A DNA stretch of 37,226 nt from an uncultured Pseudomonadota bacterium (GTDB lineage: Bacteria > Myxococcota_A > UBA796 > GCA-2862545): NCBI GenBank assembly GCA_903861005.1, contig CAIOSP010000151.1, positions 1-37,226 on the forward strand. Reading direction: 5' to 3'. How positions within the stretch are numbered: the first letter of the stretch is position 1; each line of letters opens with the position of its first letter. The notes beneath the pieces are model-generated. The model worked only from the letters and a program-made list of their open reading frames with translations. It made no database searches and was not told where the DNA came from. This document shows, piece by piece, positions 1,611 through 17,607 of this stretch. Made by a program: the position numbers and the translations under genes.

Positions 1611-2135
1611 CTAGTATGGCAGCCGGTAGAGGTACTTCCGGTAGTCGAGGTGACCGTTGGACTGGAAAGAGACCTCGTCCGAGTAGCGAACGAGCGACCC
1701 AGCCGCGTCCTGGTAGTACAGCGCGCCGTAGGTCGACGAGAAGAACATCTTCTTGTTCGGGAGGCGCTGCGGCAGACCATCGAGCGGTGCGAACGCCGCG
1801 CCGCACGTCGTCAGGTTCGAGTAGACGTTTGGGTACACTCGCGGCAGGAGATCCTGACGCGTGTCCATCGCCACCTCGAACCCGAACTCGCAAGACGGAC
1901 ACAGCGAAGCCGTGGCAAGTGGGCGAACCTGATGCACGTTGTACTGGAGGTAACAGTCCACGCTCAGTAGCACTGGAACCCCTTCCCAAGTGAGCACGCT
2001 CGCCTGGGTCACCTTTACCACCCGATCCATCGTACCCAGCCACACCGCGTTCGGCGCTACCGTCGCGCGTCCGCGCACCTCGGCCACCTTGAAGAAGTCG
2101 GTGTCCACGACCACCGTCACGTCCGTGTCCGCGGT
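1611..2135 (-). other. Unique C-terminal domain of the giant lipoprotein
   Basis: After the final Asp/Thr spacer, about 170 residues do not match the repeat pattern. They contain four Cys (including CPSC), many Tyr and the terminal sequence YRKYLYRLPY. I do not recognise the fold. Confidence 0.6.
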
Positions 2136-5100
2136 GTCCACCACCGTCTGGGCCAGATTGTCCGTCACGCAGTCGTTGGGCTCGCCGGGCGTGCCTCCCG
2201 TGTTCGTTCCGCGGATGCGGACCTTGGCCTGACACCAGTTCGCGGGCGTGTCGTTCGCGGTCGCGTTGATCCGATCCGGCATCAGCTGGAACGCGTGCCC
2301 GTTGTCGACGCCGGTCCAGTACAGGGTCCAGTTGACCGTGCTGACGGTGTCGAGGATGGGCCCGCCGGCGCCATCGTCGAGGACGATCGGCTCACCCAGG
2401 TACTGCAGGTCCGGGTACGTCCACGCGAAGTCGCTCTGGACGTGGCCGACAAGGCAATTCGAGATGTGCGTGAGCACCGCCTCCTTGCCCGGCGCCACGA
2501 CGAGCGGCTGATCCACCGCGAACCACGAAGCGCCCACGCCGGACGTGCCGCCCTGCAGTCCGACGCGCAGCCCGTTGAGGTCGAGCGTGTCGCCGGTGGT
2601 GTTGGTCACCTCGATGTAGTTCTCGTTGTTGCCGTAGCAGTCGTGCGGCCGGATCATGATCTCGCTGATGACCAGATCACCCGGCGACAGGGACGCCAGG
2701 TTCCGCACGAACGCCGGCGAGGCGCAAGCGCCGTTCGTCAAGCCCGGCGAGCCCTTGTCGGCCGTGCCCGCGATGGTGCTCGATTCGAAGCACCAGTTCA
2801 GCTCGCTGTCGTTGTCCGTCGCCGTCTCGTGCCCCGTAGTCACCGAGAACGCCTCACCGTTACGCACGGAGAACTTGCTGTAGTCGACCACATCCAGGTT
2901 CGAGTGCGAGTTGGTGAGCGCCACCGTGTCGCTCGAGTTGCCGTAGCTGCTCAGGACGAAGTTCGTGATGATGTCCGCGTTGAGGCCGAAGTAGCAGGCA
3001 CTGCTGCCTCCGACCTTGCGGATCAGCGTCAGCTTGCCGGGCGCCACCTCAAGGTGAGACGACACCACGGTGTCCGTGCCGCCGGTCCGGATGTGCATGC
3101 CGAACAGGTCCACCGTGAACGGGTAGGTGTTGCGCAGCTCGATGTACTCTCCGAACAGGTCCGGACACGCGCGCGGGTCCGCCATGAACTCGGTGATCGC
3201 GAGCTGGTCCGCGTCCAACTCCTCCACGTTGGCGACGTAGCCCGAGGGGTACGGAGGCAACTGGCCGTTCGGCACGCAGGCGTCGTTCGCCTTGCCGGGC
3301 GAGCCCTTGTCACCGAGCGAACCCGAGAAGCGCTGCCAGCCCGTGCACCAGTCCTCCGCGCGATTGTGCAGGTAGACGCTGGAGTAGGTCCGGTTGGCGA
3401 CCACGGCGGCCGGCGAGTCCCCCGCCGCCGATGACGGCGGCGTCGCCGCGACCTTGGTGGGGTTGAGCGTGTAGGCGTGACCGGGCGCCGGCGCAAACTG
3501 GCTGACATCGACCAGATCGATGACCTTGGTCTGGTTGGCGATGAACGCCACCGGACTGGCCTGCCCGAACACCAGCGACGTGTAGCGGAACTTGGTGCGC
3601 AGTGTGTAGCACTCGTTCACCGCCGCGCGCCGGGCCAGGTAGTAGTCGCCCGGCTGGATCACGAGGTGGGCCGGGAGCGCGGCGACCGTGTAGGTGCGCG
3701 CCCCGTCCGACACCACCAGCCCGTTGAGGTCGATGGGCTGGGTGCCGTTGTTGTAGACCTCGACGTACTCCGCGTTCTCGTCGGAGCAGTCGCGCGGGTC
3801 GACCATGATCTCGGTGATCAGCAGCTCGCCGACCTTCACGTCCGCCATCGGCTTCGCCGGATCCAGCGTGGTGGGCTTGAACGTGTCGAACGTGTCGCTC
3901 GGCTGGGTGTCCGGATCGTAGGTCGTGATGCACTGCGCGTTGGCGTAGCCAGGCGTGCCGCGGTCAAGCAGGCCGCCGGGGATCACATCCGGGCTCGGGC
4001 ACCAGTTGCCTCCCACGTCGTTGAGCGAGGCCGTGAACGCCGTGGGGTCCAGGTTCCAGGACGCGCCGGTCGTGCGGACCGGGAACACCGAGGTGTTGAC
4101 CGTGTCGAACGCGAACGTCGGGCCGGCCACCGTGACGGTGTCGGAGACGTTGGCCAGCTTGAGGCCCGTGTACTCGAAGTCGGACGGCAGGTCGTAGCAG
4201 TTGGACACGCCGCCGGGGACGCCGAGCGCGAACCGGTGGGGACCGACAATCACGCTCCGGTTGAGCGTGAACGTACCCGAGGACGTCGTGATCTTCAGGC
4301 CGTTGAGATCCACGTCGACGCTGCGGTTGTTGCGCAGCTCGATGTACTCGGCGGCGCCGTCGGTACAGTCGATCGGGTCGACCATCAGCTCGGTGATGAC
4401 CAGATCCGACGGGCCGAGCTGGCCCAAGGTCAGCGCGGTGCCCGTGTGAACCCAACTGTCGGTGTCCGGGTAGGCGGGATCAACCAGGGTGTCGGCGTCC
4501 AGGGGGCCGGGCGGCGGCACGCTGGTGTCGACGATCAGCGACGCGCAGCGCGGGTTGGCCGAGCCGGGCGTGCCGAGGTCGTACTGGGCGCCAGGGATCG
4601 GCGTGATCGCCGGACACCAAGCCCACGCCGCGTCGTTGGACGTCGCGGTGAGGTAGTTGCCGGACAGCGACAGCGCCTCGCCGGGCTGCTCATCGGGCCA
4701 AGTGCGGTAGTCGACCTGATCGATCAGCGTCGACCCCACGCGCACCTGGACGATGTCGCCCTGGTTGTCGAACAACGGGCGGGAGTAGGTCGCGCTGGCG
4801 TTCGCGTTGTAGAGCCGACCACCGGCGTGGAAGCGCGCCAGCACCGCGCGGCGCTTGGACGGCACGTACACGTCGTCATTGATGGTGGACGTGGCGAGCG
4901 CGCCGAACCGGTTGGCGATCTCCACGCCGCGCAGGTTCACGGTCTGACCGCTGGCGTTGTAGACCTCGACCCACTCAGTCGCGGGGTCGTTGGGCTTGAG
5001 CGCCTCGGCCGAGTTCGCCATGATCTCGGTGATCACCAGATCGCCGGGCACCAGCTCACAGGCGCCCTTGATGTTGGTGTTGGGGTCCGTCGGGCAGACC

Positions 5101-8100
5101 GGCGGGAGCACCGACGGCGGCGTGCAGGTGTTGACCGCGCCGGGGGTGCCACGGTCGCCCACGCCACCGGGGATGAGCGTGGTCGACGTGCACCACTTGT
5201 TGGCCGCGTCATTGCCGGCGGCGGTCAGAGGCAGGCCCGCGCCCAGCTCCCACGACGCGCCGAACGCGGACGGGAAGGTGTTGAAGTCGACGCGGTCGAT
5301 GATCTGCCCCGCTTCGTCCGTGAGCGTGATGACGTCGCCGTTGTTGTTCAGCACGGCGCCGTCGTACAGCGCGTTGCTCTGCAGGCCGTAGCACTGGTTG
5401 GTGCCCGCGTGCGTGTTGAGCAGCACCGCGTAGCCGTGCGACTGCACAACCGCGCTGAACTGCATGGTGGCGAGCCCCTCCTCATCGTTGACCGTGAGGT
5501 ATCGCAGGCTCAGCGGCTTGAGCGTGGTGTTGTAGACCTCGATGTACTCGGCGGTGGCGTCGGGCGAGCAGTCGCCAGGCTGCGCCATGAACTCGGTGAT
5601 CACCAGCTCGCCGGGCAGGGGGCGGTCGGGCTCGACCTGGATGTCCGTCTCGATCACGTCGGTGTCGGGCGGCAGGCAACTGCTGTCCGCCGAGTCACAG
5701 AGCACCGGGCAGCCGTCGTTCGGGCGGCCAGGCGTGCCGAAGTCGAGCAGGGTCGGGGCCGCCGGCGTCAGGTTGTAGGTGCTGATCGCGGGCGTCGGGC
5801 ACCAGGCCGCCTCGAAGGTGTTGGCCAGGTAGTTGTACTTGGTCGCGTTGAGTTGCAGCGCCTGCCCCGTGGGCGGGACCACCCAGCCGGCGGTGTTGAC
5901 GCTGTTGAAGTATACGGTGAACCCGCCCGAGTCCGTGAACGTCAGGTCGTAGCGGTCGCCGATGTCGCGCATCTCCCAGTTGGACGGGTAGCTCGCCGTG
6001 GGCTCGTTCACATAGCAGCGCGCCGCGTTCGTGCGGGCGAGCGTCGCGTAGCCGTTGCCAGCGACGACCTGGTGCGTGGTGACCACCGTGGCCGGGCCGA
6101 AGGTGTTCACGCGCAGGCGCAGGCCGAACAGGTCGACCGGGCCCGGGAAGTTGTTGTAGACCTCGACGTACTCACCCTTCGAGTCCGCGCAGTGCGGGTT
6201 CGTCATGATCTCGGTGATGATCAGCGTGGTCGTGTTGCGCGGGAGCTGGTCGAGCGTGAGCGGCGGCGGCCCCCCATCGTCGGTGTCCGAGACCACGTGA
6301 TCCCAGCAGTGACCGGCCGTACCGGCGCTGCCAAAGTCAGACGTGGACCCGATGATCGCGACGTCAGAGTCGCACCAGCGGTCCGGAAGGTTGTTCAGCG
6401 AGAACGAAGGGTTGACCGTCGGATCGAACTGAAGCGACCGCCCCTGGGTGAAGGTCCAGCCGGTGAAGTCCACCGAGTCGATGTTGCTGATGGTCGAGTT
6501 GAACAAGCGGACGCGCGTCGCGTCGAGCGTGGCGCCGCTGAGCTCCCACTGGGGGGCCATCGACGGGAAGCAGAACGCGAACTGCGAGGCCATGGGGATG
6601 ACGGTGCGCGCGCCGCCGAGCAGATCGTCGGAGCTGCCGGTCTTGAGCAGCGTGCCGGCGGTGTTGCCGCCCACCGCCACCTGCAACCCGTTGAGGTGCA
6701 TGGTGTAGTTAGTGTTGTTGTAGAGCTCCAGGTACCGGGCCTGGGTCCCGCCGCCGCAGCCCACCGGGTCCATCATGACCTCGGTCAGCAGAAGCTCGCC
6801 CTCGTACAACTCCTCGGGCGAGATGCCGTCCGTGAGGTCGCGGGTGGTGTGCGGATCCATCACGAACGTGTCGGGGCCGAGGTCGGTGTCGTCCTGCGGG
6901 CCATCCGGGTTGCAGTCGTTCAGCGCCGCGGGCGTGCCGTGATCCAGGCTGCCGAACGGGTTCATCGACGGGCCGTCGACGCACCACAGGGACTGGTCGT
7001 CGTTGAACGACGCCAGGTCGTAGTTGGGCGAGAGGACGAGCGGGATCTCGGGCATCAGCTGGCGCGCGATGCCCTTCTGGAAAGACCACCCCGAGAAGTC
7101 GACGCGATCGATCTCAGTCTGCTGACCGTTCTGGATCTTGATCGACGACGCCGTGAAGGTCTTGCCGGACGTCGCCAGGTCAAACCGATGGGCGAAGTCA
7201 TGGCAGTAGGCCTGGAACTGCTTGGGCTGAACCGTGAAGTACTGGCCCGGCGCCACGTCCGTCACGGCCGCGCCGATGGGCTCGATGTCCTCGGCGGCGC
7301 CGCTGCTCAGGTCGATCAGCAGGCCGGAGCGCAGGTGCACCGTGTAGCCCGAGGCGTTGTACAGCTCGAGGTACTGCCCCTGCGACGGGCTGCCGCCGCA
7401 GTCCTTCGGATCCAGGTGCAGCTCGGTGATCATGAGCTCACCGCGGCAGAGCTCGTCGGGATCCAGGCCGTTGTTGACGTTGCGGCTCAGCGCCGTGAAG
7501 CACGGATCCACCGGGGGCAGGTCGGTGTCGGTGTCGGTGCCGCCGCCCGGGGTGCAGGAGTTATTGGGCTCGCTGGGCGTGCCGCGGTCGCGGACGCCGC
7601 CGGCGATGTAGTTCTGCTGCGGGCACCACAGCGAGCGCAGCGGGTTGAGGTACGGCGTGGAGATCAGCGCGTCCGGGTCGAAGCCCATCGCGCGGCCGTT
7701 CGGGAACACCCAGGTCGACATGTCGACGTCGTCCACGACGACGGCGGGCGAGGCGCCGGCCACGGTGTGCAGCACCACCCGCTTGCCGGTGGGCGACAGC
7801 GAGTTGTTCACCGTGAAGCGGTTGCCGTAATTGTAGCAGCCGGTGGACGACGAACGCTGAATCGCGGTGAACTCGCGCGGCCCGAGGAGCCAGTTGCTGC
7901 CCGCGCGCTTGCCGATCGACAGGTCCTTGATGGTGCCCCAGTCGATCTTGAAGTCCCGCAGATCCACCGATTTGTCGGTGTTGTTGTAGATCTCGATGTA
8001 GCGACCCTCATCCGGATTCGGGCAGCCGAGCGGGTTGAGGTTGACCTCGTTGATGACCAGATCGCCGGGCTTGACCGGCGTGACGGTGTCCGTGTCGACG

Positions 8101-9080
8101 ACGACGTCGGAGTCGTCGGTGTCGATCGGGTTTTCGATCTGGGTGCAGCCGTGCGCCTGGCGGGCAGGCGTGCCGTAGCTCGGGCTCTTCCCGGGGATGT
8201 CGATGCCGAGCAGCTCGTCGGCCAGGCACCAGGAGTCCGGGATGTCGTTGGACGACGCGTCCTCCTTGCCCGGGGTCAGGTGCACCGCGTACCCGCGCGT
8301 GAACCGCTCCGGGGACGGTCCAAACTGCCAAGTCGAGAAGTTGACGGTGTCGATCGTGATCGTGTCCGGCCGCAGCAGCGACAGCGTGGTGTTGCTGCCC
8401 GCGCTCGTGAACACGATGTTCGACGAGTAGGTGAAGTCGGCGTGAAAGCTGGGCAGATAGCCCGCGCAGGCGGCGAAGCTGGGCCGACCGATCGCGTACG
8501 CGCCAGGCTGCACCAGCACGTCGGCCGTTACGGTGAAGCTGCGAGCGCCGTAGCGCACCACCACGTAGTGCAAGTTCAGCACTTCGGCGGTCGCGTTCTT
8601 CATCTCGATGTACTGGCCGTAGGCCTCGTTCGAGCAGTCGTCGAAGGACGGCGTGACCATGACCTCGCTGAGCACCAGGTCACCGAACAGCATGGTCCTG
8701 CCGTCCTTCGGCGGCTTGACGGTGTCGCCGGTGTCGGTGTCCGTGTCGACAGTGTCGCTGTCCGGGTTCACCGTGTCGGAGTCCTGGACGAACGTGTCAC
8801 CCGTGTCCGTGTCCGCCACGACGTCCGAGTCGCCCGTGTCGGTGTCCGTGGTGTCGACCGTGTCCGTGTCCACCACGTCGGTGTCGGGCTCATCGGTGTC
8901 GTCCACGGTGGTGTCGGTGTCCGCGTCGGGATCGTCGGTGTCGCGCCCCGGACAGGTGATGCCGATGCAGGCCGAGTCCGTGTCGTCCGTAGCGCCGCCG
9001 TCAGCGCAGGCCTGCAGCCCGCCCACCACCACGACGGCGATCGGCAACCACAGCACGCGCGAGAAGAGATTGGTCTTCAA
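1611..9080 (-). CDS. Giant lipoprotein with 11 lamin-tail-domain repeats
   Basis: This is a 2,489-residue predicted surface lipoprotein. The N-terminus has Lys2, a hydrophobic stretch and a lipobox ending at Cys25 (LQAC). Residues about 30-125 are an Asp/Thr-rich, low-complexity stalk of TDTD-type units. Eleven repeats of about 190-210 residues follow. Each opens with a GDLVITEIM-like strand, then DP..C, EYIEVYN and a hydrophobic DLNGL motif, and closes with WC...GTPG.PN..C. The opening block is typical of lamin-tail (LTD) domains, immunoglobulin-like beta folds found in exported bacterial proteins. Paired Cys at the start and end of the units suggest disulfides and export. Short Asp/Thr spacers separate many repeats. 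The last roughly 170 residues form a different, unrecognised Cys-containing domain. The start is TTG; an in-frame TAG just upstream rules out a longer form. An adhesive or cell-envelope structural role is inference. Confidence 0.85.
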   Translation of the reverse strand: MKTNLFSRVLWLPIAVVVVGGLQACADGGATDDTDSACIGITCPGRDTDDPDADTDTTVDDTDEPDTDVVDTDTVDTTDTDTGDSDVVADTDTGDTFVQDSDTVNPDSDTVDTDTDTGDTVKPPKDGRTMLFGDLVLSEVMVTPSFDDCSNEAYGQYIEMKNATAEVLNLHYVVVRYGARSFTVTADVLVQPGAYAIGRPSFAACAGYLPSFHADFTYSSNIVFTSAGSNTTLSLLRPDTITIDTVNFSTWQFGPSPERFTRGYAVHLTPGKEDASSNDIPDSWCLADELLGIDIPGKSPSYGTPARQAHGCTQIENPIDTDDSDVVVDTDTVTPVKPGDLVINEVNLNPLGCPNPDEGRYIEIYNNTDKSVDLRDFKIDWGTIKDLSIGKRAGSNWLLGPREFTAIQRSSSTGCYNYGNRFTVNNSLSPTGKRVVLHTVAGASPAVVVDDVDMSTWVFPNGRAMGFDPDALISTPYLNPLRSLWCPQQNYIAGGVRDRGTPSEPNNSCTPGGGTDTDTDLPPVDPCFTALSRNVNNGLDPDELCRGELMITELHLDPKDCGGSPSQGQYLELYNASGYTVHLRSGLLIDLSSGAAEDIEPIGAAVTDVAPGQYFTVQPKQFQAYCHDFAHRFDLATSGKTFTASSIKIQNGQQTEIDRVDFSGWSFQKGIARQLMPEIPLVLSPNYDLASFNDDQSLWCVDGPSMNPFGSLDHGTPAALNDCNPDGPQDDTDLGPDTFVMDPHTTRDLTDGISPEELYEGELLLTEVMMDPVGCGGGTQARYLELYNNTNYTMHLNGLQVAVGGNTAGTLLKTGSSDDLLGGARTVIPMASQFAFCFPSMAPQWELSGATLDATRVRLFNSTISNIDSVDFTGWTFTQGRSLQFDPTVNPSFSLNNLPDRWCDSDVAIIGSTSDFGSAGTAGHCWDHVVSDTDDGGPPPLTLDQLPRNTTTLIITEIMTNPHCADSKGEYVEVYNNFPGPVDLFGLRLRVNTFGPATVVTTHQVVAGNGYATLARTNAARCYVNEPTASYPSNWEMRDIGDRYDLTFTDSGGFTVYFNSVNTAGWVVPPTGQALQLNATKYNYLANTFEAAWCPTPAISTYNLTPAAPTLLDFGTPGRPNDGCPVLCDSADSSCLPPDTDVIETDIQVEPDRPLPGELVITEFMAQPGDCSPDATAEYIEVYNTTLKPLSLRYLTVNDEEGLATMQFSAVVQSHGYAVLLNTHAGTNQCYGLQSNALYDGAVLNNNGDVITLTDEAGQIIDRVDFNTFPSAFGASWELGAGLPLTAAGNDAANKWCTSTTLIPGGVGDRGTPGAVNTCTPPSVLPPVCPTDPNTNIKGACELVPGDLVITEIMANSAEALKPNDPATEWVEVYNASGQTVNLRGVEIANRFGALATSTINDDVYVPSKRRAVLARFHAGGRLYNANASATYSRPLFDNQGDIVQVRVGSTLIDQVDYRTWPDEQPGEALSLSGNYLTATSNDAAWAWCPAITPIPGAQYDLGTPGSANPRCASLIVDTSVPPPGPLDADTLVDPAYPDTDSWVHTGTALTLGQLGPSDLVITELMVDPIDCTDGAAEYIELRNNRSVDVDLNGLKITTSSGTFTLNRSVIVGPHRFALGVPGGVSNCYDLPSDFEYTGLKLANVSDTVTVAGPTFAFDTVNTSVFPVRTTGASWNLDPTAFTASLNDVGGNWCPSPDVIPGGLLDRGTPGYANAQCITTYDPDTQPSDTFDTFKPTTLDPAKPMADVKVGELLITEIMVDPRDCSDENAEYVEVYNNGTQPIDLNGLVVSDGARTYTVAALPAHLVIQPGDYYLARRAAVNECYTLRTKFRYTSLVFGQASPVAFIANQTKVIDLVDVSQFAPAPGHAYTLNPTKVAATPPSSAAGDSPAAVVANRTYSSVYLHNRAEDWCTGWQRFSGSLGDKGSPGKANDACVPNGQLPPYPSGYVANVEELDADQLAITEFMADPRACPDLFGEYIELRNTYPFTVDLFGMHIRTGGTDTVVSSHLEVAPGKLTLIRKVGGSSACYFGLNADIITNFVLSSYGNSSDTVALTNSHSNLDVVDYSKFSVRNGEAFSVTTGHETATDNDSELNWCFESSTIAGTADKGSPGLTNGACASPAFVRNLASLSPGDLVISEIMIRPHDCYGNNENYIEVTNTTGDTLDLNGLRVGLQGGTSGVGASWFAVDQPLVVAPGKEAVLTHISNCLVGHVQSDFAWTYPDLQYLGEPIVLDDGAGGPILDTVSTVNWTLYWTGVDNGHAFQLMPDRINATANDTPANWCQAKVRIRGTNTGGTPGEPNDCVTDNLAQTVVDTADTDVTVVVDTDFFKVAEVRGRATVAPNAVWLGTMDRVVKVTQASVLTWEGVPVLLSVDCYLQYNVHQVRPLATASLCPSCEFGFEVAMDTRQDLLPRVYPNVYSNLTTCGAAFAPLDGLPQRLPNKKMFFSSTYGALYYQDAAGSLVRYSDEVSFQSNGHLDYRKYLYRLPY
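2140..8715 (-). repeat. Eleven tandem lamin-tail-like repeats
   Basis: Units begin about every 600 bp; the first is near 8690 and the last near 2690. The most conserved parts are the opening ITEIM..P..C...EYIEVYN block and the closing WC...GTPG block. The cores diverge, which indicates old duplications. Repeat 7 lacks the opening Cys, and repeat 5 has a shortened opening loop. Confidence 0.85.
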
Positions 9081-10189: not shown

Positions 10190-12061
10190 TCACATCCCCA
10201 GCTCGAGCAGCGCCATCTCCTCGAAGAGCGCCTCGAGCTTGGTCTCGGCGTCGGCGCGCTCCTTCGACAGCTTGGTGACCGCCACGTGGTCGGTCGCCGC
10301 CTCGAACATCTCCTCGTCGATCTTGCCGATTCGAACCGAGACCTGATCCGCCTGGGCCATGAGCTTCTCCAACTTGCGGGCGGCCCGGCGGCGCTCCTGG
10401 TTGGCAGCGTGGTCGGTCTGGCCCTGGGGCGGAGCCTCGGCGGCGCGGGCCTCGGCCGTGCGACGGCCAGGGGGCGGTCCGGGGAGCAGATCCTCGGGCT
10501 TCACGCCCAGGTGGGCGTCGATCGTGCCGTCGACCACACGCGCGACGTGGGTGGCGAGCCGCTCGACCAGCCAGCGATCGTGCGTGACGACAACCAGGCC
10601 GCCCTCCCACGCGCAGAGCGCTTCGACCAACACCTCGGCCGTGACCGCGTCCAGGTGGTTGGTGGGCTCGTCGAGCAGCAGGAGATCGGCGGGGCGAAGC
10701 GCGAAGGCCGCCAGCACCACCCGCGCTTTTTCGCCGCCTGAGAGCTCCTTGATCGGGCGCATCGCGAGCTGGCCCGACAAGCCGAGCGCGCCCAGCACGG
10801 AGCGCCCCTGGGCGGGCGTCGCCCCGGGCACGGACGCGAGGGTCTGCTCCAGCGCCGTGCGCTCGCCCGGGAGGTCCTTCGCCAAGTCCTGGACGTGGTG
10901 GCCGACCCGCACCTCACGACCGACCACCCGACGCCCGGCCTGCGGCGCCAGACGCCCCGCCAGCGCCGACAGGAGCGTGGACTTCCCTGCCCCGTTCGGG
11001 CCCAGGACCACCCAGCGCTCCCCTCGGCCGATCTCGATGTCCACGCCCTTGAGCACATCCACGCCGTCCCAGCCCAGGGACGCGCCGCGCAGGCTGACGA
11101 GCATGGCGCCCGCGCCCGGGGGCGGCGGCAGCCGGAAGCGCGGCTGGCCCTCGCCCTGGGGGGCGTCGATCCGCTCGGCCTCCAGCTTCTCGATCTGCTT
11201 GACCCGGCTCTGGGCCTGGCTGGCCTTGGTCGCCTTGGCGCCGAAGCGGTCGACGAAGCGCTCGAGCCGCTCGATCTCCGCGTCCTGACGCTCGCGCGTG
11301 ACCTCGGCGATGGCGTCGCGACGGGCGCGCTCGTGGATCCAGCCGGTCAGGTTGCCGCTGAAGCTCTCCAGGCGGGCGTGGCGGATCTCGACCGTGCGGT
11401 TGCAGACACGGTCCAGCAGGTGGCGGTCGTGGCTGACGACGATCAGCGTCGCCCGGCTGCGGGCGAGGTGTTCGGCGAGCCAGGATCGCGACGCCAGATC
11501 GAGGTGGTTGGTGGGCTCGTCGAGGAGGAGCAGATCGGGGTCGGACAAAAGCACCCTTGCGAGCGCAATTCTCATCTGCCATCCGCCGGAGAAAGTTTGG
11601 CACGCTCGATGCCAGTCTTCAGTGCGGAACCCGAGTCCGTGAAGCACTTCCCCAACCGCCTCGTCCGCCGCAAAACCGCCAGCCAGACGAAACGCCTCGC
11701 GCGCTGTCTCGGCCCGGTTGATCGCGGCGTCCTCACCGCTCGCGGAAGCCACCTCCGCAGCAGCGAGTTGTTCGCCCAGAGCGATCAGATGCACCATGCC
11801 ACTTCGAGCTTCGTCCCATACGTCGCGGACAGAACCGGAGACGGCTTGCTGGGGGAGCCAGCCGACGCGCACGCCATTGCGCGTCAGCACCGCACCCGAC
11901 TCGGGTTCCAACTCTCCCAGCATCACCCGCAGCAGCGTGGTCTTGCCCACGCCGTTGCGTCCGACCAAGCCAACCCGGTCGCCCGGGTGCACGTGCAGGT
12001 CCCCGCGCTCCAGCAGCGTGCGCGCGCCCGCCGTCACCGTCACGTCATCCAAGCGAAGCAA
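10190..12061 (-). CDS. ABC-F family ATPase (Uup/YheS-like)
   Basis: This is a 623-residue soluble protein with two ABC ATPase domains and no membrane segment. That makes it an ABC-F protein, a class that acts on ribosomes (stalling relief, subunit biogenesis, sometimes antibiotic resistance) rather than in transport. Domain 1 has Walker A GRNGVGKTT (about 34-42), signature SGGWQ (158-162) and Walker B LLLLDEPTNHLD (177-188). The second half has GPNGAGKST, SGGEK and LLLLDEPTNHLD. The inter-domain linker, RFVDRFGAKATKASQAQSR, is the region that reaches the P-site tRNA in ABC-F factors. A charged coiled-coil-like C-terminal extension (about 545-620) resembles that of Uup/YheS. The start is TTG, set by GGAGG at 12067-12071 with 5-nt spacing. 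The exact subfamily is uncertain. Confidence 0.93.
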   Translation of the reverse strand: MLRLDDVTVTAGARTLLERGDLHVHPGDRVGLVGRNGVGKTTLLRVMLGELEPESGAVLTRNGVRVGWLPQQAVSGSVRDVWDEARSGMVHLIALGEQLAAAEVASASGEDAAINRAETAREAFRLAGGFAADEAVGEVLHGLGFRTEDWHRACQTFSGGWQMRIALARVLLSDPDLLLLDEPTNHLDLASRSWLAEHLARSRATLIVVSHDRHLLDRVCNRTVEIRHARLESFSGNLTGWIHERARRDAIAEVTRERQDAEIERLERFVDRFGAKATKASQAQSRVKQIEKLEAERIDAPQGEGQPRFRLPPPPGAGAMLVSLRGASLGWDGVDVLKGVDIEIGRGERWVVLGPNGAGKSTLLSALAGRLAPQAGRRVVGREVRVGHHVQDLAKDLPGERTALEQTLASVPGATPAQGRSVLGALGLSGQLAMRPIKELSGGEKARVVLAAFALRPADLLLLDEPTNHLDAVTAEVLVEALCAWEGGLVVVTHDRWLVERLATHVARVVDGTIDAHLGVKPEDLLPGPPPGRRTAEARAAEAPPQGQTDHAANQERRRAARKLEKLMAQADQVSVRIGKIDEEMFEAATDHVAVTKLSKERADAETKLEALFEEMALLELGM

Positions 12062-12147: not shown

Positions 12148-12897
12148 ATGAGCGTGGAGCCGGATCGCTGGGCGCACTTCCGAGGGGCCATGCTCGCCCT
12201 CGTGATCGCCGTGAACGGCTGGGTCGCCATCCCGATTGGCCCCCGCGTCACCGAGAAGGATCTCGCTCGCGGCGACGTGAAGGAGCAGGTCGACGAGTGG
12301 ATGGGCATGCTGTCCAAGGTGGGCGTCACCCGCCCGCAGTTCGAGACCTTCGTGCTGAAGGGCTCTGGCTTCTTCGTCGACCTGGACAACACGGTCTCCA
12401 AGCCGATCCACCCGTTCAACCAGCTGCTGCGCACCGGGCAGAACTGGGCCCTGTTCACCGGGGCCGACCGAACGCCGCTGCGCTTCGCGCTGCGCGGCTA
12501 CACCGAGGACGGCACCATCGTGCCGCTGTTCCGCCGCCTGGACCCCGACGCCACCTTCATGTCGGACATCCTGAACTTCCGGCGCGTGCGCGGGCTGTAC
12601 GACTTGGACCGCGACGAGATCCCCCGGCGCTACAAGATCTTCTCGCGTTGGGTGGCGACCCGCGCCTTCCAGGCGCACCCCGAGCTGGTCGCGGTCGAGG
12701 TGCTCCAGGAGGAGCAGCGCACGCCGCTCCCGGGCCAGAAGCCGGACATGACCGTGAAGCAGCGCTTCAAGTTCAAGGTGACGCGGGAGGACCTGGTCCC
12801 CGGCCCCAAGGCGCTGCAGGACCCGTCGACGCCACCGCCGCCGCCCGGTCCGCCCGGCGAGAACCCGCCCGCCAGCCACGGTGGGCAGCTCCCATGA
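12148..12897 (+). CDS. Unknown protein with one N-terminal membrane segment, partner of HTTM protein
   Basis: This is a 249-residue protein of no family I can name with confidence. Residues about 13-31 are hydrophobic (LALVIAVNGWVAIPIG) and probably anchor it. The rest appears to be a soluble alpha/beta domain containing a QNWALFTGADRTPLRF motif; a QNW..F signature recurs in small proteins that accompany HTTM membrane proteins, but I am recalling this, not testing it. The C-terminal 35 residues are Pro/Gly-rich and disordered. Its TGA overlaps the ATG of the HTTM gene by 4 nt, so the two are translationally coupled and probably act together. The start has only a weak GGGGA upstream, and the gap to the divergent ABC-F gene is 86 bp, which must hold both promoters. 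Confidence 0.75.
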   Translation: MSVEPDRWAHFRGAMLALVIAVNGWVAIPIGPRVTEKDLARGDVKEQVDEWMGMLSKVGVTRPQFETFVLKGSGFFVDLDNTVSKPIHPFNQLLRTGQNWALFTGADRTPLRFALRGYTEDGTIVPLFRRLDPDATFMSDILNFRRVRGLYDLDRDEIPRRYKIFSRWVATRAFQAHPELVAVEVLQEEQRTPLPGQKPDMTVKQRFKFKVTREDLVPGPKALQDPSTPPPPPGPPGENPPASHGGQLP

Positions 12898-13892
12898 CCC
12901 AGTACCGTCGCGCCTGGCTCGCCTGGGTGAACGCCTGGAATGACCGCGAAGCCCCGTGGGGGATCGCGCTGGTCCGAATCGGGCTGGCGCTCTGCCTGCT
13001 GTGGGATCTGTCGTGGGTCGGCATCGAGCGGCTGGTCGTGCCGCTGTGGGCCCCCATTCAGGCTGGTGGTTGGGGCGACGTCCTCTCCCGCGGCGACGTG
13101 CCGTTTGTCTGGCGCGTGCTGCCGCCCACCGCAGAGTCCGCGTGGGCGATCTGGGGCACGCTGATGGTGTCGATCGCCTTCGTCGGCCTGGGCATCCTGC
13201 CGCGGCTGTCGACGATCGTGTTCGTGCTGCTCTACGCGCAGACCGCCAGCATCATGGACGACGCCGACCGCGGCATCGACACCATGATGCGCAACGTGCT
13301 GCTGATCCTCTGGTGGTCCCCCGCGTGGGAGGTGCTCTCGCTGCGGGCGTGGTGGCGCTCCGGCTCGTTCCTCGGCGACGGCGCGCACCACCCTGCGTGG
13401 GCCCGGCAGCTGCTCGTGCTCCAGCTGGTGGTCATGTACTTCGGCGCGGGCATCACCAAGACGGGCCTGGGTTGGATGCCGTGGGGCGGGTTCACCGCGC
13501 TCTACTACATCCTGCACGATCCGGCGGTCGCCAGGTTCGACCTCGGCCGCTCGCTGGATCCGCTCTACTTCCTCACGCAGTTTGGCTCCGCCATCACCAT
13601 CCTGTGGGAGTACACCAGCCCGTTGATGCTGCTGTTCTTCTGGATCCGCGAGAAGCCGACCGCGCTCGGCCGCTTCCGAGACTTCTGCCTGCGCTGGCAC
13701 CCCGAGCGCCTCTACGTGGTCGTCGGCGCGGCCTTTCACATCCTGATCGCGGCGGGGCTCAACCTGGGCATCTTCCCCTTCGCGATGCTCGCGATGTACC
13801 CCGCTTTTGCGGCGCCTTGGGCATGGAACACCTGGTTCAAGTGGCTGCCTGGAACGCCCAACCCCGCTCCCCAGATCGCCGACGTGGGATAG
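12894..13892 (+). CDS. HTTM-domain polytopic membrane protein
   Basis: This is a 332-residue integral membrane protein with about seven or eight hydrophobic segments. It matches the HTTM (horizontally transferred transmembrane) pattern seen in the membrane half of vitamin K-dependent gamma-carboxylase and in many bacterial proteins. The features are an early RIGLALCLLWD helix, a central MYFGAGITKTGLGWMPWGG stretch with a following LYYIL, and a late FHILIAAGLNLGIFPF helix. It lacks the large extracytoplasmic domain of true gamma-carboxylases, so carboxylase activity should not be assumed; the function of stand-alone HTTM proteins is poorly known. It overlaps the preceding gene by 4 nt (ATGA) and ends 24 nt before the sugar-nucleotide fusion gene. 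Confidence 0.8.
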   Translation: MTQYRRAWLAWVNAWNDREAPWGIALVRIGLALCLLWDLSWVGIERLVVPLWAPIQAGGWGDVLSRGDVPFVWRVLPPTAESAWAIWGTLMVSIAFVGLGILPRLSTIVFVLLYAQTASIMDDADRGIDTMMRNVLLILWWSPAWEVLSLRAWWRSGSFLGDGAHHPAWARQLLVLQLVVMYFGAGITKTGLGWMPWGGFTALYYILHDPAVARFDLGRSLDPLYFLTQFGSAITILWEYTSPLMLLFFWIREKPTALGRFRDFCLRWHPERLYVVVGAAFHILIAAGLNLGIFPFAMLAMYPAFAAPWAWNTWFKWLPGTPNPAPQIADVG

Positions 13893-13895
13893 GAT
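13890..13895 (+). promoter_or_regulatory. Possible internal -10 element before the sugar operon
   Basis: TAGGAT overlaps the HTTM stop codon and lies 21 nt before the ATG of the fusion gene. No convincing -35 is seen. It may provide separate expression of the last three genes. Confidence 0.25.
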
Positions 13896-13916
13896 GCGCG
13901 CTCCCCTGAGAGGCGC

Positions 13917-16010
13917 ATGACATCTCCCGCGAACGCGACCCTGCCCGTGCTCGTCACCGGCGGCGCCGGCTTCCTCGGCAGTCAGGTGACGTCGGCGCTT
14001 GTGGCCGCCGGGCGATCCGTCATCGCGCTCGACGTCCGACACGCGCAGGGCAAGCTGGATCCGTCGCTGCAAGGCGTGGAGCGGGTCGAAGGGGACGTGC
14101 GCGACGACGCGCTGGTCGACCGCCTCGTCGCCCGGTCCGAGCGGGTGATCCACCTCGCCGGCATCGCCGGGGTGCACGACTACCTGCAGCGCGCGGCCGA
14201 GGTGCTGGACGTGAACCTGATGGGCTCGCGCGCCGTGCTGCACGCCGCCCACCGTCACCACCGCGCCGTGCTGTTCGCTAGCACCAGCGAGGCCTACGGC
14301 AAGAACACCGACGACCTCCGCGAGGATGGCGACACCGTGCTCGGGCCGACGTCGAACGCGCGCTGGGTCTACGCGGTCAGCAAGCTCGCCGCCGAGCACC
14401 TGGCGTGGGCCCTGACCCGCGAGGGCCTGACCGCCGCCGCCGTGCGCTACTTCAACGCCTACGGCCCCCACATCGACGCCCCCGGCCGCGGCCGCGTGAT
14501 CAGCCAGTTCCTGGGCGCGGTGCAGGAGGGTCGCCCGCTGGAGTTGGTCGACGGAGGCCACGCCGTGCGCTGCTTCTGCTACGTGGACGACGCGGTCGAG
14601 GCCACGGTCGCCTTGGCGCTCGCGCTCAAGCCAGGGCCCCTGGTCGGTCGCCCGTTCAACATCGGCAACCGCGAGCCGGTCACCATGCGCCAGCTCGCCG
14701 AGGCGATCATCCGCCTGACCGGGCACCAGGCCGGCATGGTCGACACCTCCGGGCTCGAATTCTTCGGCAAGGGCTTTGAGGACATCCCCCGCCGCGTGCC
14801 GAACGTGTCGGCGATCCACGAGGCGGTCGGCTGGACGGCCCGCACCAACCTGGAGGACGGCCTGCGCGCCACGCTCGCCGCGTGGGACCTGCTCAAGGCG
14901 GACGCGCCGCGGCCCGCGCCGCCGGTGATCCCGGTGATCCGCCCCTTCTACGACGCCGACAGCGCGCTGTTCGACAAGATCCGCGGCGCCTTCCAGGAGG
15001 GTCGCACCACCAACGCCGGGCCCCACGTCACCGCGCTGGAGGCCGAGAGCGCCGCCTGGCTCGGCGTGGACCGCGTGGTGTCGGTCGGCTCCGGCGCGGA
15101 CGGTCTGGAGGCGTCGCTGCTGGCGCTGGGACTCAAGGGCGCCGCGATCCTCCCGTCCTTCACCTACATCGCCACGCTGAACGCAGTGGAGCGCGCCGGC
15201 CTGCGCCCGGTCCTCGCCGACATCGACCCGAACACCTGGACGATCGATCCCGATCACGTCGCGGCCCTGCTCGCCGCCAACCCGGACGTGGCGGTGGTGA
15301 TCCCGGTGAACGTGTTCGGCGTGCCGCCCGATCTCGACCGGCTGGTCCCGTTGGCCAAGGCCGCCGGCGCGACGCTCCTGCTCGACGCCGCGCACGCCGC
15401 GGGCAGCAGCCATGACGGCAAGCGGGTGGATCCGCGGGTCGACCTCACCGTCTTCAGCCTGCACGCCACCAAGGTCTGGCCGTCGATCGAGGGCGGCCTG
15501 GTGGTCGCGGGCGATCCGGCGCTGACAGCCCGCGTCGCCACCGTCCGCACGCACGGCCTCGCGCCCGACCTGCGCGACTCGATCGTCGGCTTCAACGGCA
15601 AGCTCGACGAGATCTCGGCCGCAACGGCCCGCCACGGGCTCGCCCACCTGGAGCGGACCCTCGAGCGCCGCCGCGCCTACGACGCGCGCCTCCGCGCGGC
15701 CCTCGTCCGCGCCGGCTGGACCGTCCAGCAGGTGCCGCACGGGGTCGTGACCAACGGCCAGAACCTGTGCGCCATCGCGCCCGGCACGATGGAGTCCGCC
15801 CGCGACACCCTCGCCGCGCACGGCATTGCCACCCGCCGCTACTTCGACCCGCCGCTGCATCAGCTCCGACGCCTCGGCGACGTGCCGGCGCTGCCGGTCA
15901 CCGACCACGTCTGGTCGCGCAGCCTCTGCCTGCCGCTGCACAGCCACATGGACGACGCCACGCTCTCCCGGATGGAGGTGGCGATCGCCGAGACGGGGCG
16001 CGCGCCGTGA
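13917..16010 (+). CDS. Fused ArnA-like UDP-sugar decarboxylase/epimerase and DegT aminotransferase
   Basis: This 697-residue fusion joins two sugar-nucleotide enzymes. Residues 1 to about 325 form an extended SDR domain: the NAD motif TGGAGFLGS, STSEAYG with Glu125, and YAVSK with Tyr152/Lys156. The segments RWVYAVSK, DGG..VRCF, FNIGN and YGKG-like FFGKGFEDIPRR resemble the C-terminal UDP-glucuronate decarboxylase half of ArnA closely, including an acid after Thr-Ser and an Arg (292/293) near the ArnA catalytic Arg. Residues about 335-697 form a DegT/DnrJ/ArnB-type PLP aminotransferase, with Lys519 in SLHATKVW as the Schiff-base lysine and DAAHA as the cofactor Asp loop. A product such as a UDP-4-amino-4-deoxy pentose is inferred. 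No formyltransferase domain is present. GAGAGG lies just before the ATG, and the stop overlaps the next start (GTGA). Confidence 0.88.
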   Translation: MTSPANATLPVLVTGGAGFLGSQVTSALVAAGRSVIALDVRHAQGKLDPSLQGVERVEGDVRDDALVDRLVARSERVIHLAGIAGVHDYLQRAAEVLDVNLMGSRAVLHAAHRHHRAVLFASTSEAYGKNTDDLREDGDTVLGPTSNARWVYAVSKLAAEHLAWALTREGLTAAAVRYFNAYGPHIDAPGRGRVISQFLGAVQEGRPLELVDGGHAVRCFCYVDDAVEATVALALALKPGPLVGRPFNIGNREPVTMRQLAEAIIRLTGHQAGMVDTSGLEFFGKGFEDIPRRVPNVSAIHEAVGWTARTNLEDGLRATLAAWDLLKADAPRPAPPVIPVIRPFYDADSALFDKIRGAFQEGRTTNAGPHVTALEAESAAWLGVDRVVSVGSGADGLEASLLALGLKGAAILPSFTYIATLNAVERAGLRPVLADIDPNTWTIDPDHVAALLAANPDVAVVIPVNVFGVPPDLDRLVPLAKAAGATLLLDAAHAAGSSHDGKRVDPRVDLTVFSLHATKVWPSIEGGLVVAGDPALTARVATVRTHGLAPDLRDSIVGFNGKLDEISAATARHGLAHLERTLERRRAYDARLRAALVRAGWTVQQVPHGVVTNGQNLCAIAPGTMESARDTLAAHGIATRRYFDPPLHQLRRLGDVPALPVTDHVWSRSLCLPLHSHMDDATLSRMEVAIAETGRAP

Positions 16011-16843
16011 CCCGAGTGAGCATGGTCGCGCCCGTCCACAACGAGGCGCGCGTGCTGCCGGAGCTGGCCCGACGCGGCCTGGACGCCGTGCGCGCGGTCG
16101 ATCCCGCAGGCGCGGTCCTGCTGGTCGACGACGCCTCCACCGACGACACCCGCGCGATCCCGCTCCCCAAGGGCGTGTCGCTGCTGACGCTGACGGTGAA
16201 CCGGGGACAGCTCGGCGCCACCAAGGCCGGGCTGGCCAAGGCGCCCGGCGAGATCGTCGTCGTGCTCGACGGCGACCTGCAAGATCCCCCCGAGACCCTC
16301 CCCGACCTGGTCCGCGCGCTCGAGTCCATGCCCGGGATCGACGCCGTGTTCGCGGTGAAGCGCTCTCGGCATGACGCCGCGTGGTTCGTCGCCGCGCGCT
16401 CGGTCTACGGCCTGCTCTCCCGCCTGCCCGGCACGCGCGCGATCCCCGCGGGAGCCGGGTCCTACGTCGCGATGCGCGCGCCGCTCGCGCGCCGCGTCGC
16501 CGCCACGACGGTCGGCTCGGCCAACCTCGCGGCCATCGTCGTCGCCCTGGGCGCGCGGACCGCCACCGTCGACTACGACAAGGCCGCCCGCGTCGACGGC
16601 GCATCGCGTGTGGGCGTCGTCGGGCTCGTGCGCGAGGCGCTCGGATCGCTCCTGCTCACCGGCACCTTCTCCTGGCTCTTCCGCCTGACGGCCTGGCTGC
16701 TGCTCGTCGGCTCGTGGATCGCGCAGGTGCGCGCGGAGCTGTTCCCGACGATCGGCGTCGGCATCCTGGTGTCCCTGCTCCTCGCCTCCACGCTCGACCG
16801 GCGTCGACGCCGCATGCTCGCGCCCGCCAAGGAGTCCGCATGA
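16007..16843 (+). CDS. ArnC/DPM-like family 2 glycosyltransferase with membrane tail
   Basis: This is a 278-residue GT2 enzyme, probably transferring a sugar from a nucleotide donor to polyprenyl phosphate at the inner membrane. The N-terminal GT-A domain shows VSMVAPVHNE, LVDDASTDDT, NRGQLGATKAGL and the metal-binding VVLDGDLQDPPE. These correspond to the same blocks in ArnC and dolichyl-phosphate-mannose-synthase-like enzymes. Residues about 205-262 hold two hydrophobic segments, as in ArnC/GtrB, followed by an Arg-rich cytoplasmic end. GTG at 16007 overlaps the upstream TGA and keeps the first beta strand; ATG at 16022 is possible but would trim it. Its stop overlaps the next ATG. The donor is inferred to be the product of the upstream fusion enzyme. 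Confidence 0.85.
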   Translation: MTRVSMVAPVHNEARVLPELARRGLDAVRAVDPAGAVLLVDDASTDDTRAIPLPKGVSLLTLTVNRGQLGATKAGLAKAPGEIVVVLDGDLQDPPETLPDLVRALESMPGIDAVFAVKRSRHDAAWFVAARSVYGLLSRLPGTRAIPAGAGSYVAMRAPLARRVAATTVGSANLAAIVVALGARTATVDYDKAARVDGASRVGVVGLVREALGSLLLTGTFSWLFRLTAWLLLVGSWIAQVRAELFPTIGVGILVSLLLASTLDRRRRRMLAPAKESA

Positions 16844-17607
16844 CCGCCGCCCTCTCGCCCGAGCAGACCGAGGCCTACTGGCGGGACGGCTACGTCAACC
16901 GGCTGGTCGCGCTCTCACCCGACGAGGCCCAGGCGCAGCTCGCCGCGTTTGAGGCGATCGAGGCTGAGGCGGTGGCGGCGCACGGCGGCGAGTGGAAGCA
17001 GCGCGACTACCGCCCGTGGGAGCACGCGGACCACCCGTTCCGCGAGTGGATCGACGGCCTCGTCCGCCACCCGCGCGTGCTCGACTTCGTCGAGTCCATC
17101 CTCGGGCCTGACATCCTGATCCGCAACGCCGACGTGTTCGTGAAGAACCCGGGAATTCGCCGCGGCATCAACTGGCACGTCGACACCGCCGAGAAGGGCC
17201 CCGACGCCGACAAGCTCCTCACCGTCTGGCTCGGCCTCACCGAGTCGACCGACGAGAACGGCGGCCTGCACTACGCCGCCACCAGCCATCGGCAGATCAT
17301 GCCGGACGCGCCAAAAGACAAGTTCAACCTGACCCTGTCCCCCACCGCCGTGGCCGCGCTCGACCGCAGCCAGGAGGTCATCAACGTGATGGAGGCGGGC
17401 ATGATGTCCATGCACCACTTCAGCCTGGTCCACGCGAGCGGCCCCAACCGCACGCCCCGTCGTCGCGTCGGCTTCGTCGGCCGCTACATGGCGCCCGCGA
17501 TCCGCCAGGCCACCGCCGAGAGCGGCGTCGCCACCTTGCTCCGCGGACGGGACACCTTCGGCCACTTCGCGCTGAAGGACCGCTTTCCCATGACCTGGAC
17601 GATGTGA
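16840..17607 (+). CDS. Phytanoyl-CoA dioxygenase (PhyH) family Fe(II)/2-oxoglutarate oxygenase
   Basis: This is a 255-residue predicted non-heme iron dioxygenase. The iron ligands are visible as the HxD pair His113-Asp115 in INWHVDTA and the distal His198 in LVHASGPN. An Arg pair about ten residues later (208/209) probably binds the 2-oxoglutarate carboxylate. GGLHYAATSH is typical of the family's double-stranded beta-helix core. Members hydroxylate or oxidise varied small molecules, lipids and sugars, so the substrate cannot be read from sequence. Coupling to the glycosyltransferase gene (ATGA overlap, AGGAG 5 nt upstream) suggests it modifies the same sugar or its lipid carrier. No signal peptide is seen, so it should act in the cytoplasm. 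Confidence 0.88.
   Translation: MTAALSPEQTEAYWRDGYVNRLVALSPDEAQAQLAAFEAIEAEAVAAHGGEWKQRDYRPWEHADHPFREWIDGLVRHPRVLDFVESILGPDILIRNADVFVKNPGIRRGINWHVDTAEKGPDADKLLTVWLGLTESTDENGGLHYAATSHRQIMPDAPKDKFNLTLSPTAVAALDRSQEVINVMEAGMMSMHHFSLVHASGPNRTPRRRVGFVGRYMAPAIRQATAESGVATLLRGRDTFGHFALKDRFPMTWTM

Follow-up and report, generated by a model that had tools for sequence, protein, structure and literature searches.

Background

Do five overlapping genes in the genome of an uncultured member of the Myxococcota_A form a single pathway, or do they bring together units that also exist apart? The question is raised by positions 12148-17607 of a 37,226-nucleotide contig (CAIOSP010000151.1, assembly GCA_903861005.1), which was analyzed over its whole length and is called here the window. 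Five plus-strand genes, g1 to g5, follow each other there with junctions of -4, +24, -4 and -4 nucleotides (nt). An initial annotation had reported this layout of three 4-nt overlaps and one 24-nt gap, and had recognized an anchored protein (g1), an HTTM protein (g2), a fusion of a short-chain dehydrogenase/reductase (SDR) with a DegT aminotransferase (g3), a family 2 glycosyltransferase (GT2; g4) and a PhyH dioxygenase (g5); the coordinates agree with the former, and Pfam and hydropathy profiles with the latter. It had further proposed that all five products serve one pathway, a rewired version of the Arn route of lipid A modification.

In this report, we compare the locus with those of related genomes to determine which of its genes belong together. 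Our main finding is that the conserved unit consists of the fusion and the GT2 (g3 and g4) and that, in the lineage of the window, this sugar module is flanked by two units that are independent of it, the HTTM pair (g1-g2) and the PhyH gene (g5), within one overlapping operon. Judging from homology and active-site residues, the probable function of the g3-g4 module is to synthesize a 4-amino-pentose and attach it to polyprenyl phosphate, a GT-C-like transferase acting in trans.

The fusion and the glycosyltransferase are the conserved unit

All five genes occur in the same order in a genome of the same genus (G001), at about 94-98% identity, and in a genome from another genus of the family (G006), where they lie beside the same ABC-F gene as in the window and overlap by 4 nt at all four junctions. 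Protein identity between the window and G006 is 35% for g1, 43-45% for g2, 52% for the DegT half of g3, 46-52% for g4 and 43-44% for g5; among the 58 relatives searched, these two genomes are the only ones with a strong match to the fusion. The association of g3 with g4 extends far beyond the family. A profile of the GT2 matched 14 genomes with at least 168 bits, the rest scoring at most 115 bits, and the full fusion adjoins the GT2 in nine of them (that of the window, G001 and seven from other families), a DegT protein without a recognizable SDR half does so in three, and neither is adjacent in two. HTTM and PhyH genes are present in none of the 11 GT2 loci outside the family of the window. 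The conserved linkage, whose absence in relatives would have counted against the initial annotation, is real for the five-gene order, which recurs in a second genus, and much wider for the fusion plus GT2.

The outer genes are found without the sugar module. Indeed, a profile of g1 has hits in 79 of the 379 genomes from the phylum, the g1 homologue is followed immediately by an HTTM gene in all 30 loci fetched, and none of 18 additional loci of the pair that were inspected has g3, g4 or g5 nearby, so that g1-g2 is an independent two-gene module present across the order. As for PhyH, the genome G002 carries such a gene alone (L149, 9661-10404, contig C11) adjacent to the ABC-F gene, with the orientation kept and at the place of g1-g5, g1 to g4 being absent; the tree leaves its orthology to g5 unsettled, and close PhyH homologues do not track the GT2 across genomes. 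PhyH is independent of g1-g4. These occurrences, of the HTTM pair among unrelated neighbors and of PhyH in G002, speak against the idea of one pathway built from all five genes, which we reject as unproven.

The opposite view holds that g1-g2, g3-g4 and g5 are three unrelated units, neighbors by chance that share a transcript, and that no five-gene pathway exists. We regard the chances of this as evenly balanced. It accounts for the spread of g1-g2 beside unrelated genes, for the PhyH gene at the same place in G002, a genome that lacks the GT2 group and the GT-C-like proteins described below, and for the absence of HTTM and PhyH from the other GT2 loci; moreover, the flanks are syntenic, so that vertical descent by itself could have kept the genes in this order. 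It does not account as readily for overlapping starts that have been kept between genera at 35-52% protein identity, which suggests selection for joint expression. The products of g1, g2 and g5 may thus act on the same acceptor as the sugar module, or merely be co-expressed with it.

The SDR half of the fusion groups with ArnA

In g3, Pfam places Epimerase (PF01370) at residues 11-250 and DegT (PF01041) at 351-685, and finds no formyltransferase domain. Residues E125, Y152, K156 and R293 align with E434, Y463, K467 and R619 of E. coli ArnA. A tree of the SDR domains was calculated with ArnA, Burkholderia PbgP3, a UXS-like protein of Sinorhizobium, RfbB, RffG, GalE, Gmd and Fcl as references, the UXS row being identified by its motifs and not by annotation. 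The fusion SDRs cluster with ArnA and PbgP3 (98/94) and lie apart from RfbB/RffG, GalE, Gmd and the UXS-like rows, the last of which form a separate clade (100/100). Moreover, the stretch FFGKGFEDIPRRVP of g3 is the counterpart of YYGKGYQDVEHRKP in ArnA and is missing in UXS; this ArnA-type (F/Y)(F/Y)GxG(F/Y)(E/Q) stretch, found in the SDR half of g3 and not in UXS, is detected by pattern in eight of 10 complete or near-complete fusions, all 10 of which have the E, Y and K motifs. The initial annotation had called for a comparison of the SDR half with ArnA and UXS by phylogeny, and would have given up its proposal for an unrelated epimerase devoid of the Glu/Arg pair; the domain proved to be the sister of ArnA/PbgP3, with E125 and R293 both kept.

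A sequence search of the PDB with the SDR half returned 8vr2 first (function not traced), followed by PbgP3, UAXS and ArnA. Against the NCBIfam model of whole ArnA (PRK08125), g3 scores 122.6 bits for a cut-off of 777. The literature provided nothing useful on an ArnA-ArnB fusion, on 8VR2 or on 6ZYK, a structure matched by g5.

The DegT half and the GT2 form clades of their own

In the DegT half, K519 lies in the motif SLHATK, and a motif scan finds the pyridoxal phosphate (PLP) lysine in 11 of 11 copies. The DegT halves form their own clade (100/100), on the side of DesI and not with ArnB; DesI is also the best NCBIfam DegT match of g3, and the ArnB equivalog PRK11658 is not reached (122.8 bits versus 631). 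This placement hints at another stereochemistry at C4, without proving it.

The product of g4 matches Glycos_transf_2 (E 2.9e-17) and contains the motifs DGDLQDPPE at residue 88 and RxxGxSR at residue 195. It has nine matches in the PDB, the best being ArnC (9bhc, E 1.4e-20), then sll0501 (GtrB-type) and dolichol-phosphate mannose synthase (DPM). ArnC is also its best NCBIfam match (PRK10714), at 76.8 bits for a cut-off of 529, and in the tree the g4 group is a clade of its own (100/100) beside ArnC and GtrB. From these similarities, g4 is predicted to work like a polyprenyl-phosphate GT2 of the ArnC/GtrB/DPM type without being a member of ArnC. Two C-terminal membrane helices had been annotated in g4; a hydropathy scan finds one clear helix, at 245-263, the first one (219-237) being called only in a relative, and both are weakly predicted. 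A role in anti-phage defence was considered and rejected, as PADLOC yields only a 15.7-bit match, to the GT2. The initial view of a rewired Arn pathway is hence upheld by the SDR half, which groups with ArnA, and not by the two other domains, which the trees place outside the ArnB and ArnC clades.

A GT-C-like membrane protein accompanies the GT2

In six or more loci, a membrane protein of 480-760 amino acids (aa) is encoded next to the GT2 or the fusion. It has no match in Pfam. Its profile was aligned by hhalign with PMT_2 (GT-C) proteins at 94.6% (E 7e-8, 324 columns), versus at most 3% for five to seven control membrane proteins (HTTM, flippase, polymerase). The comparison with ArnT as a single sequence fails (0.3%), so the relation to GT-C is distant. 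Of the 379 genomes, 19 carry the family, among them 13 of the 14 with the GT2. Since five genomes had seeded the profile, the corresponding P value (9e-19) is inflated and was recomputed without them: the co-occurrence then holds in eight of nine GT2 genomes (P 3e-12) and in four of four non-seed genera (P 1e-6), values that assume independence of the genomes or genera, an assumption that is only partly true. In the genome of the window, two GT-C-like genes lie on other contigs, C189 (559 aa) and C130 (544 aa). The earlier remark that no ArnT is visible is thus true of the window, and incomplete for the genome, which encodes, on other contigs, members of this distantly GT-C-like family associated with the GT2. 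The gene on C130 (L205, 9334-10968) begins 3 nt past a LipA-like lipoyl synthase gene.

A further fusion, with 46% identity to g3, was found in Dolichospermum sp. FACHB-1091 (L031, 7971-15030). It has no GT2 of the g4 group and lies in a small unrelated cluster, which could be a metabolite cluster, together with genes for another SDR, a methyltransferase and an EamA-like transporter. One may therefore ask whether the sugar of the window is likewise destined for a secondary metabolite, soluble or secreted, instead of a polyprenyl carrier. The closest stand-alone SDR found on plasmids (Streptomyces, 40%) would fit: the gene immediately before it encodes a nucleotide-sugar dehydrogenase, and its cluster also contains genes for glycosyltransferases and an acyl carrier protein. 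We nevertheless consider such a destination quite unlikely, as fusions within the phylum of the window are linked to a GT2 of the polyprenyl type and to a GT-C-like protein, and the window locus has housekeeping surroundings and no non-ribosomal peptide synthetase, polyketide synthase or precursor gene.

A lead from the same direction is the actinobacterial thymidine diphosphate (TDP)-pentose route to 4-amino-pentoses, represented by CalS8, CalS9 and CalS13 of calicheamicin. Decarboxylation of a glucuronate followed by amination by a DegT enzyme is common to that route and to the one predicted here, and the nearest stand-alone SDR adjoins a nucleotide-sugar dehydrogenase in Streptomyces; however, calicheamicin uses separate enzymes for an antibiotic, whereas in the window a single fused protein is encoded next to a GT2 of the polyprenyl type.

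Lipid A is an unlikely acceptor

Searches for LpxC gave no match in six of seven genomes, that of the window included, and searches for LpxB gave none in 12 of 13 genomes carrying the module; neither was found in the genome of the window (G000), in G001 or in G006. The assembly of the window is 97% complete, G066 has both LpxC and LpxB, and the search controls behaved as expected. Lipid A is therefore an unlikely acceptor. This bears directly on the possibility of a classic Arn system conferring resistance to cationic peptides through lipid A, which the homology of the SDR and the GT2 with ArnA and ArnC might suggest. With no LpxC or LpxB detected, no ArnD or formyltransferase in the cluster, as the initial annotation had observed, and a GT2 and a DegT outside the ArnC and ArnB clades, such a system is largely refuted for the genome of the window and has become highly improbable.

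We favor a related solution: g3-g4 is most likely, by homology, a variant of the Arn kind whose acceptor is other than lipid A. Like the E. coli system (PmrHFIJKLM, with ArnA, ArnB, ArnC and ArnT), it would combine a decarboxylase that is the sister of ArnA and keeps its Glu, Arg, Tyr and Lys, a DegT 4-aminotransferase, a polyprenyl-type GT2 and a co-occurring GT-C-like protein. Unlike it, the decarboxylase is fused to the aminotransferase, where that of ArnA is fused to a formyltransferase; the cluster has no gene for formylation or deformylation; lipid A genes were not found; DegT and GT2 fall outside the ArnB and ArnC clades, and the GT-C-like protein belongs to a separate family that has no Pfam model. 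The predicted transfer by a GT2 to a lipid carrier, followed by a GT-C outside the membrane, also recalls GtrA/GtrB/GtrC-type systems and dolichol-phosphate mannose synthase; the module differs from these by its own amino-sugar synthesis and by a GT2 in a different clade.

The steps may be as follows. The genome of the window and G006 both have a gene of the nucleotide-sugar dehydrogenase family (UDP-glucose dehydrogenase or a relative), so that a supply of uridine diphosphate (UDP)-glucuronate is possible. The SDR half of g3 would convert UDP-glucuronate to a UDP-4-keto-pentose, as in ArnA, and the DegT half would turn this into a UDP-4-amino-4-deoxy-pentose, which g4 would transfer to polyprenyl phosphate. 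After flipping, the GT-C-like membrane transferase (C189 or C130, in trans) would pass the sugar to an envelope acceptor other than lipid A.

Several observations weigh against this scheme. In G006, the SDR half (L028, 3819-5648, minus strand, contig C553) is reduced to an in-frame remnant of 240 aa (Pfam E 0.12), in which GxxGxxG is kept and TSE and YxxxK are gone, and still DegT, GT2, PhyH and the HTTM pair are all retained. Moreover, a DegT without SDR lies directly before the GT2 at L143 (G296) and L142 (G076). It follows from the remnant and the two DegT-only loci that decarboxylation is not always encoded, and hence not obligatory, at the locus. The long tail that ArnC and GtrB have at the C-terminus is missing from the product of g4, the GT-C assignment comes from one profile comparison, and G183 has the GT2 with no detected GT-C. 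Finally, Pfam finds neither a formyltransferase nor a deformylase (ArnD) in the cluster; in E. coli, formylation and deformylation drive the ArnC step. The remnant of G006 keeps the coding GC pattern, and a frameshift as the origin of the loss was rejected, since no SDR match exists in any frame.

Since one relative has a degenerate SDR half and two have none, the sugar may vary. The module could then serve a different 4-amino sugar, such as 4-amino-4-deoxy-D-xylose or a 4-amino-6-deoxyhexose that comes from elsewhere, and resemble Arn in logic only. The persistence of DegT and GT2 where the SDR is lost or degenerate is what such a sugar would predict, and the position of the DegT halves near DesI, in the tree and in NCBIfam, points the same way. 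We nonetheless find it doubtful in view of the nine complete fusions, whose SDR is ArnA-like, keeps the decarboxylase residues and is under purifying selection, and we retain a 4-amino-pentose as the probable product.

The HTTM pair and the dioxygenase

The product of g1 has one N-terminal hydrophobic segment (residues 13-31) and the invariant motifs GQxWxLF and RRxR. It has no match in Pfam, NCBIfam or PADLOC, and 24 of its homologues gave no consistent match. Its AlphaFold model is of low confidence (pLDDT 54.7) and has no Foldseek match under E 0.001, and a weak resemblance to uricase and dihydroneopterin aldolase was not used. For g2, the HTTM assignment is clear (PF05090, E 2.4e-11, 44.1 bits versus a curated cut-off of 27.7), and the predicted structure (pLDDT 36) is unusable. 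HTTM proteins with a small partner gene are known from SdpA-SdpB of Bacillus and from linaridin clusters, where a role in linaridin maturation is assumed and the mechanism is unclear (PMC9927463). The g1-g2 pair shares this arrangement but fits no SdpA or SdpB model: g2 scores 15.7 bits against SdpB (TIGR04033, cut-off 178.4), and neither g1 nor any of the 24 homologues matches a model of SdpA, so this identity was rejected. No peptide precursor turned up near g1-g2, although no search was aimed at precursors.

The product of g5 matches PhyH (PF05721, E 5.4e-19), has 6zyk as its best PDB match (E 5.2e-30) and retains the iron ligands H113-V-D115 and H198. Its best NCBIfam match is a chlorinating subfamily. 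Halogenases lack the Asp of the HxD motif; it is present in g5, and a halogenase was rejected. G006 has a paralogue of g5 (L147, 9350-10267) beside an MMPL-like transporter, in a stretch that also contains a radical-SAM-like gene, and the genome of the window has another (L146, 9320-10114).

Coding constraint and surroundings of the locus

Ratios of non-synonymous to synonymous substitution (dN/dS) relative to the genome of the same genus are 0.12, 0.10, 0.07, 0.19 and 0.05 for g1 to g5, and 0.06 and 0.08 for the SDR and DegT halves of g3 taken separately. All five frames are under purifying selection and behave as genes (Table 1). The locus is flanked by housekeeping genes, named by sequence inspection: ABC-F upstream, and a response regulator, a glutaredoxin-like and a MinD-like gene downstream. 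Further away (1611-9080, minus strand), the window encodes a secreted protein of 2489 aa, rich in Asp and Thr, with many repeats of the LVITEIMxxP...EYIEVYN type that look lamin-tail-like by eye.

Table 1. Genes of the locus, domains of the fusion and the adjacent gene
Feature	Position	Strand	Description
g1	12148-12897	+	249 aa; N-terminal anchor, no known family
g2	12894-13892	+	332 aa; HTTM-domain membrane protein
g3	13917-16010	+	697 aa; SDR-DegT fusion
g3, SDR half	residues 1-325		ArnA-like predicted decarboxylase; E125, Y152, K156, R293
g3, DegT half	residues 340-697		DegT aminotransferase; predicted PLP lysine K519
g4	16007-16843	+	278 aa; GTG start; putative polyprenyl-phosphate-type GT2
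g5	16840-17607	+	255 aa; putative PhyH-type Fe(II)/2-oxoglutarate dioxygenase
ABC-F ATPase gene	10190-12061	-	Divergent neighbor; conserved context, outside the module; also adjoins the locus in G006 (L028) and G002 (L149)

Conclusions

Two things formerly read as one are now separated: a sugar module, and an HTTM module that extends over the order and whose partner is of no known family. A bolder extension would see in the former a widespread, undescribed pathway operating without lipid A, with a fused enzyme, a new GT2 subfamily, a new GT-C family and an envelope acceptor, to which hydroxylation by PhyH and modification by HTTM were added in one lineage; we put it forward tentatively and hold it rather unlikely as a whole. 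If the scheme proposed for g3-g4 is true, the fused decarboxylase-aminotransferase, the GT2 subfamily and the membrane transferase family that has no Pfam model would constitute one testable system. The logic of Arn, in which a lipid carrier bears a positively charged amino pentose, would then exist without lipid A, which implies that another molecule of the envelope is the acceptor.

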